Positions 5,033-17,537 of a stretch of DNA of 64,000 nt are shown in pieces. The notes below the pieces were generated by a model. That model was given only the letters and a program-made list of their open reading frames with translations, did not search any database and was not told the DNA's origin. Location: positions 4,830,506 through 4,894,505 of the forward strand of contig OX638316.1 in assembly GCA_951812525.1 (NCBI GenBank), read 5' to 3'. The position numbers and the translations under genes were made by a program. This stretch comes from an uncultured Poribacteria bacterium (GTDB taxonomy: Bacteria; Poribacteria; WGA-4E; WGA-3G). Position 1 is the first letter of the stretch. Each line of letters opens with the position of its first letter.

Positions 5033-5602
5033 CTACTTGAGAATCAGCATGCGTCGCGTGGCGGTGAAATCGCCAGCGGTCAACTTATAGAAGTAAACAC
5101 CACTCGCCACGGGTTCACCCAACGCATTTCTGCCATCCCAATACGCCGCACGGCTCCGGCTGGTATAGAAGCCTGCGGATTGGAAACCGAGTGGGATTCT
5201 ACGCACAATAACGCCTTGGGTATCGTATATCGTGATTGTTGCCTCGCTGTCCGTTGATAGTTGATACGGTATCCATGTCTCCGGGCTAAACGGATTTGGA
5301 TAGTTGGGTAACAACGCGGTCTCTACAGGTGCTAAGGGTTGAGTGGACGCACTATAAGCGCTATTGGCGTTATCTATTGCTGTGGCAACAAGAACTAAAT
5401 CGTTTACGTCAACTTTGCCACTGCGGTCAACGTCCGGGTTAGGGTTCGGACTCCCTGTAATTGTTTCTCCGTATCTTGCCGCGACAATTACCAAGTCAAC
5501 GATATTCACAATCCCGTCGGCATTAACGTCTGTATAACTTGTGTCCTCTGTAGAATCGGTGTCGTAGGTGTTGTCGGATTCTATAGACGGGGTTTCACTC
5601 AA
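5033..5602 (-). CDS. Dockerin-like and C-terminal sorting domain, separated half of the metalloprotease
   Basis: The frame contains two EF-hand/dockerin-type repeats (DVNADGIVNIVDLVIVAARYG and DVDRSGKVDVNDLVLVATAI) and then a FlgD/T9SS-like C-terminal module beginning LLPNYPNPFSPETWIPY and ending with the basic MLILK tail. Such modules usually end long secreted enzymes. The only available start is a TTG that overlaps the stop of the upstream metalloprotease. The same frame stays open upstream for about 18 codons (TCDHFIFANARLLSE), so this half most likely belonged to the metalloprotease before a one-base shift near 5640-5660. Confidence 0.75.
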   Translation of the reverse strand: MSETPSIESDNTYDTDSTEDTSYTDVNADGIVNIVDLVIVAARYGETITGSPNPNPDVDRSGKVDVNDLVLVATAIDNANSAYSASTQPLAPVETALLPNYPNPFSPETWIPYQLSTDSEATITIYDTQGVIVRRIPLGFQSAGFYTSRSRAAYWDGRNALGEPVASGVYFYKLTAGDFTATRRMLILK

Positions 5603-12237: not shown

Positions 12238-12821
12238 TGAAGTGCCCCCTTTTATTTGGACCACAATTTAGCAAAGTTAAGAGAAGGTTCGTCTTTGAAA
12301 TTCGACAGGTGTCAGATACCCTAACGCCGAATGTGGGCGTTTCTGATGATACACCTGTGTGATAAACTGCCCCATGCGTTCTCGAGCCTCGGTAATATCC
12401 TCGTAGTCATTGAGGTGAACTTCTTCTTCCTTGAGGGTTCGGATCAACCTTTCGGAAACCTACCCGTTCTCCCAAGGACATCCTCTGTGTGCTAATGAAA
12501 TCTCAATACCGTGTTCTTTGAGCGTCAAGAGATAAGCGGTTGAAAGATATTGCACGCTTTGATCGGAATGATGTATCTCCGGAGACCCACTTTCAAACAC
12601 TGCTTCTTGTAGCGGTTTCAACGTCAGAGATGTGTTCAAATGGTAGCTGACCTGCCATCCTCTGATCATTCGGGTGAAGATGTCCATGAGCAGAGCGACA
12701 TAGATGAAACGTCCCTTGAGACGGACGTAGGTAATATCGCCAACCCAGACTTGATCCTCTAGATTGCCATTGTAGCACAATCTTATATTAGAGAGTGGTC
12801 TAAATTTCCGGTGGCAGTACA
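12238..12821 (-). mobile_element. IS3-type element with internal deletion and broken transposase
   Basis: The ends are TGTACTGCCA (12812-12821, left end) and TGAAGTGCCC (12238, right end), 584 bp in all, about half the expected length. The transposase remnant (12277-12780) shows the rve core: VWVGDITYVRLKGRFIYVALLMD, IHHSDQSVQY and, after an in-frame TAG in the motif PWENG-stop-VSERLIRTLKEEEV, the tail RPHSALGYLTPVEFQ. OrfA and the start of OrfB are deleted and the left-end leader is fused directly to the core. The element is dead. Confidence 0.75.
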
Positions 12822-14401: not shown

Positions 14402-14986
14402 TTATTTTATGTGTATAAATTCCAAACCCAAAACTACTAATTGCGAATACTTTTGCGTTGTCGCGATGCTCTTGTTTCCTAACATTTCTTGCGCGGCGAA
14501 AACATCACCTGTCTGCTCATAAAGCCGTTGCGCAAAGGATTTGCGTAGGGAATGGGTGGCGAGGTGCCCGTTGAGTCCAGCCATCTCAAAAGCGGCTTTT
14601 AGGACATCGTGCGCCGTTCTCCTGGACATCCGCTGCGTGCCCTGTCCGTTTCGCGAGAGAAAGAGCGGACGGCTTTTGTGCGTGGTCCCGTATTTCTCCC
14701 AGTGCAATGCGATTAGGTCCTCAATGGCACGCTGACCGTCCGAATTCACCGGCACGGCTCTGGATACCTCACCACCCTTGACGATGGATTTGTCGAAAAG
14801 TAAATCGGTTACCGGCTTCTCGTTCTGGTACACGTCCCCGATGCGGAGCGATAGCAACTCACTGATGCGTCCGCCAGTACTCACACCGAGCAGGAATAGT
14901 GAGCGATTGCGTACTTGGTACGTACCGGTGAAAGCGGCGGATACACGCCTGATCTCGTCGTTGTCAAGCGGTCTAGTGCCTTTCAT
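14402..14986 (-). CDS. Short tyrosine recombinase (FimB/FimE-size integrase)
   Basis: About 194 residues from the ATG at 14986 (an upstream GTG at 15019 would add 11). Only the catalytic domain is present. Visible residues: Arg in TGGRISELLSLR, Lys in DKSIVKGG, HSLRKSF (His-x-x-Arg) and the nucleophile Tyr in TTQKYSQL. The usual second His/Trp is replaced (LGNKSIATTQ instead of LGHK). Such short recombinases invert or excise small DNA segments. It starts 10 bases after the DUF262 gene stop, so the two are probably one transcript. Confidence 0.85.
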   Translation of the reverse strand: MKGTRPLDNDEIRRVSAAFTGTYQVRNRSLFLLGVSTGGRISELLSLRIGDVYQNEKPVTDLLFDKSIVKGGEVSRAVPVNSDGQRAIEDLIALHWEKYGTTHKSRPLFLSRNGQGTQRMSRRTAHDVLKAAFEMAGLNGHLATHSLRKSFAQRLYEQTGDVFAAQEMLGNKSIATTQKYSQLVVLGLEFIHIK

Positions 14987-14996
14987 AGTTTCAGGT

Positions 14997-16736
14997 CTAC
15001 ATAGTCTCCTTATTTTCACCCATTGCTTTCTGGATTACACGGAATAATGCTTCTTTGCGGGCTTCAAAGAAACCCCAGAAATCATCAGCTCGCAGAGCGT
15101 CGGCAGAGATGAGGTGAGCGGCAAGTCTCTCATCCATTTTAGCATTGTCTATCTCTGCTTCATTTTGTATTCTTTGCAAATACTCTGAAGGGGCTCGCCC
15201 ACCTATCTGTTGATTCGTGCGTGCTGAGATTGCTGTTTTATTGATAATACTATTATAGTCATAGGGTGCGATTCCTTTACTCTCGCACCAAGCTCTGGGA
15301 AATATGTGATGGATGTCAATCCTATCGTCAAAGAATATCTTCTCATCAATGGGGTACCCAGTGCGAAAATCGCTTGCACCTCTGTCGTGCATAATCAATG
15401 CATGGATTCCCTTATACAGGGCACTATTACGGGTTCGGAGTTCAAGTAAACGCTTCTTTTGGAAATCTGCTTCCTTGATTGTTGTTGGTTCCTTTCCACT
15501 TTCTTTTATCCAAGCAGTCACTTCAGAGAAATCCCTAGCTGCTTGAGTATCAGTAGCACCCGCATACATCTCACCAAGCACACCGCACCAATACCAACGC
15601 GCAATTTTCTGTTGAACTCCTTCTGTTTCACTCAGATCCCCTAAATCCGTTAGAATCGCTGCCAGCGGGACAAGTTGAGCTGAATAGGGTATGTCTCTTG
15701 CATGAAATATCTTCTGTCCGTGCAAAAAGCGGGCTGCCTTCATAAACCCAGCCTCGATTTGATCTGCCCATTTTTCATAACGCTTGCGATCCAACTCCAG
15801 GATTTCCTTACGCTTGCAACTCACTGCCGCGCCTTTGTTATTGGTGGCGACCAGTGTAAGTGCTTGTAGAAAATTGATACCATCAAGTTTTTGAAGCACC
15901 TTATGCTCTGTGAGACGTTTTTCTCTAAGTTCCCAATCATCACGCAATTGGAAGTTTTCTGCAGCGAGGGATGCCGTGAGAAGTTCAAACACAGTGAGCG
16001 TTATCCCCCCGGTGTTTACTTTCTCAAATACCAAGCAAACGGCCTCTTTCGGGGCATCACCTAACTCAATAACTGGGACATTGTATCGATTAAAGGGTTC
16101 AATTATCTTAGTCTCAAATGTGAAGAGCAAGTCAATTTTCTCAGCGTCCGGATTCCAATGTTTCATGTATCCCTGCCTCCAACCAGCAGAGTCGAAAATC
16201 TTGTGCACTGGAAACATGTGGTTTTCATACTGATCTTGGGTTGATGAGAGATAAATAGGTTCTGCTTTTCCATTGGATGTTGACACTTGCAAACGATGAT
16301 CTTCTCCACAAGAAACGACAGCCTCCTCGCGCTCCGTTTCATTTCCGAGACACACTTTCATATCCAAATAATAATATAAACGCCTAGTCCTACCTCGAGA
16401 GTTCCTCGTAGAAACCCCGTTTTTCGACATTAAGGTTTGAAACAGCGCGGTAAGCCGTTGTTGTCCATCAAGTATGAGAGTCTCAGGTTCTTTATGAACA
16501 CCGGCAATATTAACGCCCTCAATGAGTCTTGTTTTGAAACGGATATCTGTGTCTTTGGCTTTGAGGGTAAGCACAGAGCCAATGGGAAATTGCCTAGATA
16601 CGCTAGCGATAAGGCTTCGGATACGGTCATTGTCCCATACCCAACCCCGCTGGAAATCAGGTAATTGTATCTTTCCACTTTCTATTTCTTTCAGCAAATC
16701 TTGAAGGAAAGGTTGGCCAATACCAAAAATACTCAT
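14997..16736 (-). CDS. DUF262/DUF1524 (GmrSD-like) protein
   Basis: 579 residues. The N-terminal DUF262 domain (ParB-like nucleoside-triphosphate hydrolase fold) shows IQLPDFQRGWVWDNDRIRSL (residues about 23-42) and LILDGQQRLTALFQ (about 87-100). The C-terminal DUF1524 domain of the HNH type is seen at about 473: IDIHHIFPRAW, followed by SIINKTAISARTNQQIG. In characterised relatives (GmrSD, SspE, BrxU) these proteins cut modified or foreign phage DNA. A strong GAGGAGATAAAC site precedes the ATG. It is followed by the recombinase gene and preceded by an IS3 remnant. A second family member remains only as a fragment at 17.3 kb. Confidence 0.88.
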   Translation of the reverse strand: MSIFGIGQPFLQDLLKEIESGKIQLPDFQRGWVWDNDRIRSLIASVSRQFPIGSVLTLKAKDTDIRFKTRLIEGVNIAGVHKEPETLILDGQQRLTALFQTLMSKNGVSTRNSRGRTRRLYYYLDMKVCLGNETEREEAVVSCGEDHRLQVSTSNGKAEPIYLSSTQDQYENHMFPVHKIFDSAGWRQGYMKHWNPDAEKIDLLFTFETKIIEPFNRYNVPVIELGDAPKEAVCLVFEKVNTGGITLTVFELLTASLAAENFQLRDDWELREKRLTEHKVLQKLDGINFLQALTLVATNNKGAAVSCKRKEILELDRKRYEKWADQIEAGFMKAARFLHGQKIFHARDIPYSAQLVPLAAILTDLGDLSETEGVQQKIARWYWCGVLGEMYAGATDTQAARDFSEVTAWIKESGKEPTTIKEADFQKKRLLELRTRNSALYKGIHALIMHDRGASDFRTGYPIDEKIFFDDRIDIHHIFPRAWCESKGIAPYDYNSIINKTAISARTNQQIGGRAPSEYLQRIQNEAEIDNAKMDERLAAHLISADALRADDFWGFFEARKEALFRVIQKAMGENKETM

Positions 16737-16770: not shown

Positions 16771-16909
16771 TCAGCTACCAAGCACCTCTACCAATTCGAC
16801 CTTTAGGCGTGAATCTTCTGCGTTCGCCATTGGATACTCCTTTCAAATAGATTGTCATTGTAGCACAATCTTATCTTAGAGAGTGGTCTAAATTTCCGAT
16901 GGCAGTACA
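16771..16909 (-). mobile_element. Left-end remnant of an IS3-type element with start of orfA
   Basis: Bases 16845-16909 match the left end at 12762-12821 (ending TGTACTGCCA). Reading inward, AAAGGAG and ATG (16830) open a 19-codon frame MANAEDSRLKVELVEVLGS. One neighbouring frame spells RRRFTPK, the usual start of IS3-family OrfA, so the fragment is an OrfA beginning with small indels. Nothing of the rest remains. Confidence 0.6.
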
Positions 16910-16977
16910 CACCCTCAGCAGAGTCAAGACTCTGAAGATGATGATAACTAAAAATAAGTCGAAAACTCGGTAAGAAA

Positions 16978-17007
16978 TTGGACAAGTCCCAGGAAATGTA
17001 GTATAAT
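16978..17007 (+). promoter_or_regulatory. Sigma70-type promoter of the tRNA-like RNA locus
   Basis: TTGGAC and TATAAT hexamers separated by 18 bases. The -10 overlaps the left arm of a long inverted repeat. No protein-coding frame starts downstream before 17280, which suggests an RNA product. Confidence 0.5.
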
Positions 17008-17064
17008 ATTAGGCGTAGGACAGTTTTGTTTTGAAGTTATCTAATGCCCTACGCTAATATTATG
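17002..17064 (+). repeat. Long interrupted inverted repeat in front of the tRNA-like RNA
   Basis: Arms AATATTA(G)GCGTAGG (17005-17019) and CCTACGCTAATATT (17048-17061) pair perfectly over 14 bp with one bulged G, extendable by two or three pairs outward. The 28-base loop contains GTTATC (17036-17041). Confidence 0.7.
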
Positions 17065-17131
17065 GGTGTGCTCCGGGGGAGCAATGGAGGCTGATAACCT
17101 CTGTTTTCGGGTTCGACTCCCGACACCTCCA
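17064..17131 (+). ncRNA. tRNA-like structured RNA with GAU anticodon-type loop
   Basis: The stretch folds as a small cloverleaf. The T arm is canonical (TCGGG, loop TTCGACT, CCCGA; 17107-17123). The anticodon-like arm is GGAGG/CCTCT with loop CTGATAA (GAU, as in tRNA-Ile; 17086-17102). The D arm is a tight GCTCC-GGG-GGAGC hairpin (17070-17082), too short for a normal D loop. The acceptor GGGTGTG pairs with CACCTCC with one mismatch and one G-T pair, no bases 8-9 remain, and no CCA is encoded. It could be a degenerate tRNA-Ile, a tmRNA-end fragment left as an integration site, or a regulatory tRNA mimic. Confidence 0.45.
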
Positions 17132-17135
17132 ATAA

Positions 17136-17162
17136 AGAGGGTAGAATACTATTCTGCCCTCT
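17136..17162 (+). terminator. Hairpin terminator after the tRNA-like RNA
   Basis: 12-bp arms AGAGGGTAGAAT / ATTCTGCCCTCT with one G-T pair and a three-base loop, five bases after the tRNA-like 3' end. There is no T tract, so termination is inferred from position and strength. Confidence 0.5.
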
Positions 17163-17279
17163 CTAAGGCATAACCTCTATACATAACATATCCCGCCCCC
17201 CAACCCACGATAAACAAAAAATCAAAAAAATTGTAGAATCAACCGAAAAATCAACGAATTACGTGCATCCCAAATCTAC

Positions 17280-17537
17280 TTGTTGCGTAATATAAAAGCA
17301 TGGAGTGATCAACTCGCGTTTGATTTTGACGTGGACGACGCGGTAGCAATCAAGACGGTCACGATGAAAGCCAAACTCGATTCTCACCTTATTCCTATTG
17401 ATGCTTTTCTGGCTGATAATTTTGAGGAGTTCTTGGAAAAACGCAAAGAAGCTCTGCTAAAAAAAATTGAAGCAGTTATGGGCAAACCAATAAACCGTGA
17501 AGAGGAAGATTCATCCGGTGAAGAATTCGGTTATTGA
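17280..17537 (+). pseudogene. C-terminal remnant of a second DUF262/DUF1524 protein
   Basis: The 85-codon frame has no good start or ribosome site. Its segment KLDSHLIPIDAFLADNFEEF and LEKRKEALLKKIEAVMG lines up with the end of the DUF262 protein at 15 kb (DERLAAHLISADALRADDFW, EARKEALFRVIQKAMG). It therefore derives from a related gene on the opposite strand whose first 85 percent is lost. The tail (EEEDSSGEEFGY) is acidic. Confidence 0.7.

Follow-up and report, generated by a model that had tools for sequence, protein, structure and literature searches.

Introduction

Dual-identity tRNAs are already known, and the Poribacterial cassettes described below resemble them. The tRNA-ProX molecules of Streptomyces and Kitasatospora (tRNA-ProA, ProN and ProT) likewise join the identity of one amino acid to the anticodon of another: they have proline identity, an anticodon that begins with A34 and a dedicated synthetase, ProRSx, encoded together with them (PMC11415595). 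For alanine, the G3.U70 pair is sufficient for recognition by AlaRS (PMC11415595). A short RNA with a tmRNA-like acceptor and T arm and no tag reading frame, the TLD-only tmRNA, is known from phage DS6A and some plastids (PMC4131195, PMC11915505), and a molecule like that of phage DS6A was reported to interfere with tmRNA (PMC4131195). Fragments of tRNA genes left by integration are tRNA-like sequences in mosaic regions with low tRNA scores (PMC9897764), and a reduced D arm or D loop is found in D-armless mitochondrial tRNAs and in tRNA-Sec with a 4-base D loop (PMC7609411).

Here we analysed a stretch of 64,000 nucleotides (G000:C1:4830506-4894505; hereafter the window) within a 5.06-Mb single-contig genome, in which a preliminary description had proposed a promoter-driven tRNA-like RNA. 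We hold with moderate confidence that this element is an orphan alanine-type tRNA-like gene, probably horizontally acquired and probably decaying, related to a population of units with non-alanine anticodons in Candidatus Poribacteria.

The tRNA-like unit and its surroundings

ARAGORN called a single tRNA in the window, a tRNA-Ile(GAT/GAU) at 17061-17132, and made no call when the 64 kb were dinucleotide-shuffled 40 times. The transcript region folded more stably than all 200 of its shuffles (z-score -4.1). The tRNA-like unit is real, and the proposed promoter-driven tRNA-like RNA is supported at the level of sequence. Its claimed layout, a cloverleaf with a canonical T arm, a GAU anticodon arm and a minimal D arm, was borne out as well, with 5 of 5 pairs in both the T arm and the anticodon arm (Table 1). 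The anticodon loop is that of a canonical tRNA (7 nt, U33, a purine at position 37, closed by a 5-bp stem). The unit as a whole is not: the check by covariance model, as proposed earlier, gave a match to the Rfam tRNA model (RF00005) at 17075-17131, but at 25.9 bits, under the gathering score of 29, and with the D arm skipped in the best alignment, and the 7-bp acceptor stem is not intact. The tmRNA model, proposed likewise, failed to recognise the unit (23.3 bits; threshold 47), and the tmRNA D-loop motif GGATTCGACG is absent, while the elements of alanine identity found in tmRNA and TLD-only tmRNA, G3.U70 together with A73, are present.

Table 1. Features of the locus, numbered from the first letter of the window
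Feature	Position	Strand	Remarks
sigma70-type promoter TGGACA-17 nt-TATAAT	16979..17007	+	boxes at 16979-16984 and 17002-17007; perfect -10; 11/12 consensus matches
interrupted inverted repeat	17003..17062	.	arms 17003-17019 and 17047-17062; overlaps -10 box
tRNA-like body, 68 nt	17064..17131	+	discriminator A17131 (A73); CCA not encoded; ARAGORN
5' acceptor strand GGGTGTG	17064..17070	+	partner CACCTCC 17124-17130; folding
miniature D arm CTCC-GGG-GGAG	17071..17081	+	folding probability 0.97-0.99
anticodon arm GGAGG-CTGATAA-CCTCT	17086..17102	+	anticodon GAU 17093-17095
T arm TCGGG-TTCGACT-CCCGA	17107..17123	+	
3' acceptor strand CACCTCC	17124..17130	+	
3' hairpin, 12 bp, without T-run	17136..17162	+	folding
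GmrSD-type gene	14997..16736	-	divergent neighbour; Pfam PF03235; without link to the tRNA-like unit in relatives
second GmrSD-type gene, C-terminal fragment	17280..17537	+	
dispersed repeat, left side	16805..16921	.	part of it copied again at 12760-12821
dispersed repeat, right side	17229..17298	.	common to several congeners

The acceptor stem can be drawn in two registers, both of which keep the G.U pair at 3.70 (with U17128). The 64-130 register contains a U4.C69 mismatch (-22.3 kcal/mol), and the energetically favoured one has two terminal mismatches (-27.0 kcal/mol for the body). We first assumed that one G-to-T change at acceptor position 4 separates the window copy from its relatives; alignment and folding suggest rather that two leading Gs were lost, and both readings are given here. 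With this damage, efficient charging of the window copy is doubtful.

The sigma70 promoter of the preliminary description is well founded: among 120-nt stretches drawn at random from the window, 0.2% and no more scored equally well with a perfect -10 box. The inverted repeat described there is also genuine, its 9+9 core occurring once in the window where 0.00 occurrences are expected by chance. No second copy of it was detected in the window or in its own genome, and a dispersed repeat family formed by the leader arms was ruled out, as their matches stayed at control level. The inner part of the repeat would form a 5' leader hairpin (17014-17053; predicted probability 0.9-1.0). As to the terminator hairpin claimed at the 3' side, its 12 pairs are present but it lacks a T-run and is not an intrinsic terminator, and no intrinsic terminator was found at the locus.

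The unit lies between dispersed repeats, and no synthetase was found among the neighbouring ORFs that were examined. At 14402-15019, on the minus strand, we observed a truncated gene for a tyrosine recombinase, which consists of the catalytic domain without the N-terminal part and overlaps the GmrSD gene at that gene's end.

Relatives in Candidatus Poribacteria

Searching with R1, a covariance model built from the window body, brought up look-alikes in a second genus of the same family. Their scores (32-40 bits) are not separated from those of ordinary tRNAs, so that the case for homology of the window unit is one of sequence likeness and common layout and not of a decisive score. On contig G077:C50 (L089), seven of the look-alikes form an array next to CRISPR-like repeats, and another two lie on the opposite strand; L068 and L070 are solitary units with TATAAT promoters. 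A DNA search with L068 led to further dispersed copies, and a search with R3, which models the complete cassette and for which the canonical tRNA background extends up to about 48 bits, added more cassettes, among them L128 from the genus of the window itself. The population is known here from two Poribacteria genera. A mixed model (R2) was built and left unused because it included ordinary-looking tRNAs. In the array contig, the units at L089:7200-8560 come directly after the CRISPR-like repeats, and the two on the other strand (5097-5257) adjoin a transposase-like ORF (IS1595 type by eye).

In global alignments, the window unit was most similar to three of the array units, which share 55, 54 and 54 identical positions with it and reach scores of 30.0, 28.5 and 28.5, followed by L068 and L070, and all of these ranked above the 44 canonical tRNAs of its own genome (best 21.0). 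The signal comes mostly from the T arm and 3' acceptor; when these are left out, the 5' part is no nearer to the relatives than to canonical tRNAs. Window unit and relatives also share the TATAAT promoter, a tiny D arm with a GG loop, and ends of the form TATGGGkGTG...CACCTCCA. Of 84,980 species genomes scanned with an exact pattern, only three have the window layout, and all three are Candidatus Poribacteria. Closest resemblance, tiny D arm and G3.U70 place the window unit next to the array type, but it has G34 and A37 where that type has U34 and C37. Further points against membership in the family are the absent outer helix of the cassettes and an R3 score of 34 bits, which lies in the canonical-tRNA background. 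The 37 congeners searched yielded no copy of the unit, and DNA searches of relatives, phages and plasmids, together with exact-pattern searches of viral and species genomes, revealed no close copy.

In 12 solitary cassettes a helix of 14-15 bp encloses the tRNA body, and a T-run stands at the end in most copies; the outer helix looks like an intrinsic terminator that carries a tRNA in its loop. Across these cassettes 92% of cells are paired and 17 of 31 pairs show compensatory changes, with a covariation score above all 500 shuffles and all slid controls; an unfitted alignment of eight cassettes still gave compensatory changes in 15 of 31 pairs. Judged by these patterns, the relatives resemble genuine genes for RNA.

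All 12 cassettes have G.U at position 3.70, while covariation is seen at 5.68 and 6.67. When the array is counted, 20 of 21 units have G3.U70, compared with three of the 44 canonical tRNAs, all three tRNA-Ala. The acceptor types of the units match those of the host tRNA-Ala(CGC) and tRNA-Ala(UGC), host tRNA-Ala acceptors reading GGGGCAG/CTGCTCC or GGGGGTG/CATCTCC. The anticodon is non-alanine in 19 of 21 units; U34 is present in 20 and C37 in 19 of them, whereas position 37 is a purine in all 44 canonical tRNAs of the window genome. Altogether, the anticodon loops of the 21 units follow N-U-U-N-N-C-A. An anticodon register shifted by one base, considered as an explanation of C37, was rejected, with 38% of cells paired compared with 85% in the normal register. 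Decoding by the family RNAs is therefore uncertain, given that C37 is not rescued by the shift. One cassette (L156:99-224, on G072:C8) has the loop CTTCACA; the resulting anticodon, UCA, would correspond to the stop codon UGA. In the literature searched (open-licence papers), no description of such Poribacterial cassettes was found.

Short relatives of tmRNA were observed as well. Units of 84-88 nt are present in L072, L073, L076, L077 and L086 (at about 1501-1586) and in G067, G072, G073, G076-G079 and G081-G083, and one at G056:C185:7792-7896 measures 105 nt. They have the D-loop motif and the acceptor but no tag reading frame, and the tmRNA model, whose threshold is 47, gives them 64-70 bits. 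Full-length tmRNA was seen by the same search in seven of ten genomes with short tmRNA relatives, and G065 apparently has two full-length tmRNA genes (G065:C1:113568-113916 and G065:C2:662686-663039). A TLD-only tmRNA-like RNA of 69 nt with an encoded CCA (L095:3523-3591, minus strand, in IMGVR_UViG_3300008517_001140; 52 bits with the tmRNA model) lies on a contig that appears phage-like, with terminase- and portal-like ORFs by eye.

Proposed mechanism

At the window locus, a transcript of about 150 nt would start near 17014 and could be trimmed by RNase P and RNase Z. CCA would be added afterwards; it is likewise missing from the host genes for tRNA-Ile and tmRNA. AlaRS would then recognise the G3.U70/A73 end, as in tRNA-Ala and tmRNA. 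Intact relatives would in this way yield an RNA that carries alanine yet is distinct from both tRNA-Ala and tmRNA, and the charged RNA might serve in mistranslation, as for tRNA-ProX, as a non-ribosomal donor of alanine, or in interference with tmRNA or AlaRS.

A bolder proposal, which we regard as speculative and rather improbable, is that Poribacteria carry mobile alanine-accepting tRNAs with their own promoter, a terminator-like helix and the anticodons of other amino acids (in one case UCA), which place alanine at those codons or supply it outside ordinary translation, the window unit being a member that has strayed and partly decayed. Taken by itself, the window copy is of minor interest, and the family that it resembles is of more: the G3.U70 pair is kept throughout the cassettes while its neighbours covary, despite anticodons that are mostly not those of alanine, and C37, nearly constant in the family, occurs in none of the canonical tRNAs. 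Should the family RNAs be charged, they would be tRNAs that mistranslate naturally or that serve as dedicated donors of alanine.

Alternative explanations

The window unit may instead be a functionless relic, that is, a decayed tRNA pseudogene brought by a phage or another element into a mosaic region and without any RNA role. The damaged acceptor, the single copy with none in congeners, the repeats and gene fragments on its flanks and the scores under the tRNA and tmRNA gathering thresholds would all fit; but the strong promoter is still intact, the T and anticodon arms are fully paired, the D arm is intact, and the fold is more stable than in shuffled sequence. We consider this explanation unlikely, though one to be taken seriously.

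It is improbable that the unit is a working, divergent tRNA-Ile(GAU), an extra tRNA charged by IleRS through its anticodon. The ARAGORN call names this tRNA, and the loop CTGATAA is identical to that of the genome's own tRNA-Ile, but that regular tRNA-Ile is already there, the acceptor is damaged and no D loop could hold G18-G19, while editing by IleRS was reported to depend on D-loop elements (PMC11415595). An earlier suggestion, a degenerate tRNA-Ile, thus comes near to the preferred reading in the words 'degenerate tRNA', but isoleucine fits the anticodon only; the acceptor end resembles that of alanine-type units.

A tmRNA-like decoy, which would titrate SmpB or AlaRS and damp trans-translation, has a precedent in phage DS6A, where a molecule similar to its TLD-only tmRNA inhibits tmRNA (PMC4131195, PMC11915505). 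The acceptor and T arm of tmRNA type agree with such a role, as do the TLD-only RNAs of 84-88 nt in ten Poribacteria genomes. The window unit, however, has an anticodon arm, lacks the motif GGATTCGACG and scores below the tmRNA threshold, and we find this role quite improbable.

Also proposed earlier was an attachment site derived from tmRNA. A complete tmRNA gene and a normal tRNA-Ile(GAU) gene do exist elsewhere in the same genome, but the 3' end of the tmRNA is not an exact match: the last 22 nt of the window unit differ from it at two positions, and nothing else in the genome lies within three mismatches, so that the unit is not a recent att fragment and is not identical to the 3' end of any gene of the genome. 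The truncated tyrosine recombinase gene nearby and the tmRNA-like T arm could be read as traces of integration into a tmRNA or tRNA gene. However, the likeness to tmRNA is limited to the T arm and acceptor, there is no third copy, and the unit has its own promoter and its own 5' half, with 5' acceptor, D arm and anticodon arm; such an origin is very improbable.

The first proposal was of a regulated RNA whose leader masks the anticodon and which is tied to GmrSD defence. GTTATC in the leader is indeed an exact complement of GATAAC, but shuffling the leader produces a 6-mer complementary to the anticodon arm in 8% of trials, or in 21% when the whole body is considered, and the pairing has a probability of 0.0 in the predicted transcript and a duplex energy of only -3.8 kcal/mol. 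Apart from this chance-level 6-mer, nothing speaks for a pseudoknot or masking switch. GmrSD and FRG genes are adjacent to the unit, but ARAGORN found no tRNA-like unit beside GmrSD homologues of 78-82% protein identity in three congeners or in any other GmrSD homologue locus scanned, and DNA similarity to the GmrSD loci of congeners ends before the unit; the defence link is unsupported because these close homologues lack it, and an association with GmrSD was rejected. With neither part upheld, this proposal is barely credible.

Comparison with known systems

The orphan alanine-type tRNA-like gene that we favour differs from each of the described systems. D-armless mitochondrial tRNAs and tRNA-Sec (PMC7609411) belong to unrelated lineages and have unrelated roles. 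Compared with tRNA-gene fragments left by integration (PMC9897764), the window unit retains both halves and a promoter and has no matching donor gene in the genome. In comparison with TLD-only tmRNA, an anticodon arm and a mini D hairpin take the place of the tmRNA D-loop motif, and the tmRNA score is sub-threshold. Unlike tRNA-ProX, with its proline identity, A34 and ProRSx, the Poribacterial units, the alanine-type window acceptor among them, have the alanine pair G3.U70, many different anticodons and no co-encoded synthetase in the loci read. With tRNA-Ala they share G3.U70, A73 and near-identical acceptor stems, and they differ from it in their non-alanine anticodon, reduced D arm and own promoter, to which the relatives add the terminator-like helix and C37.
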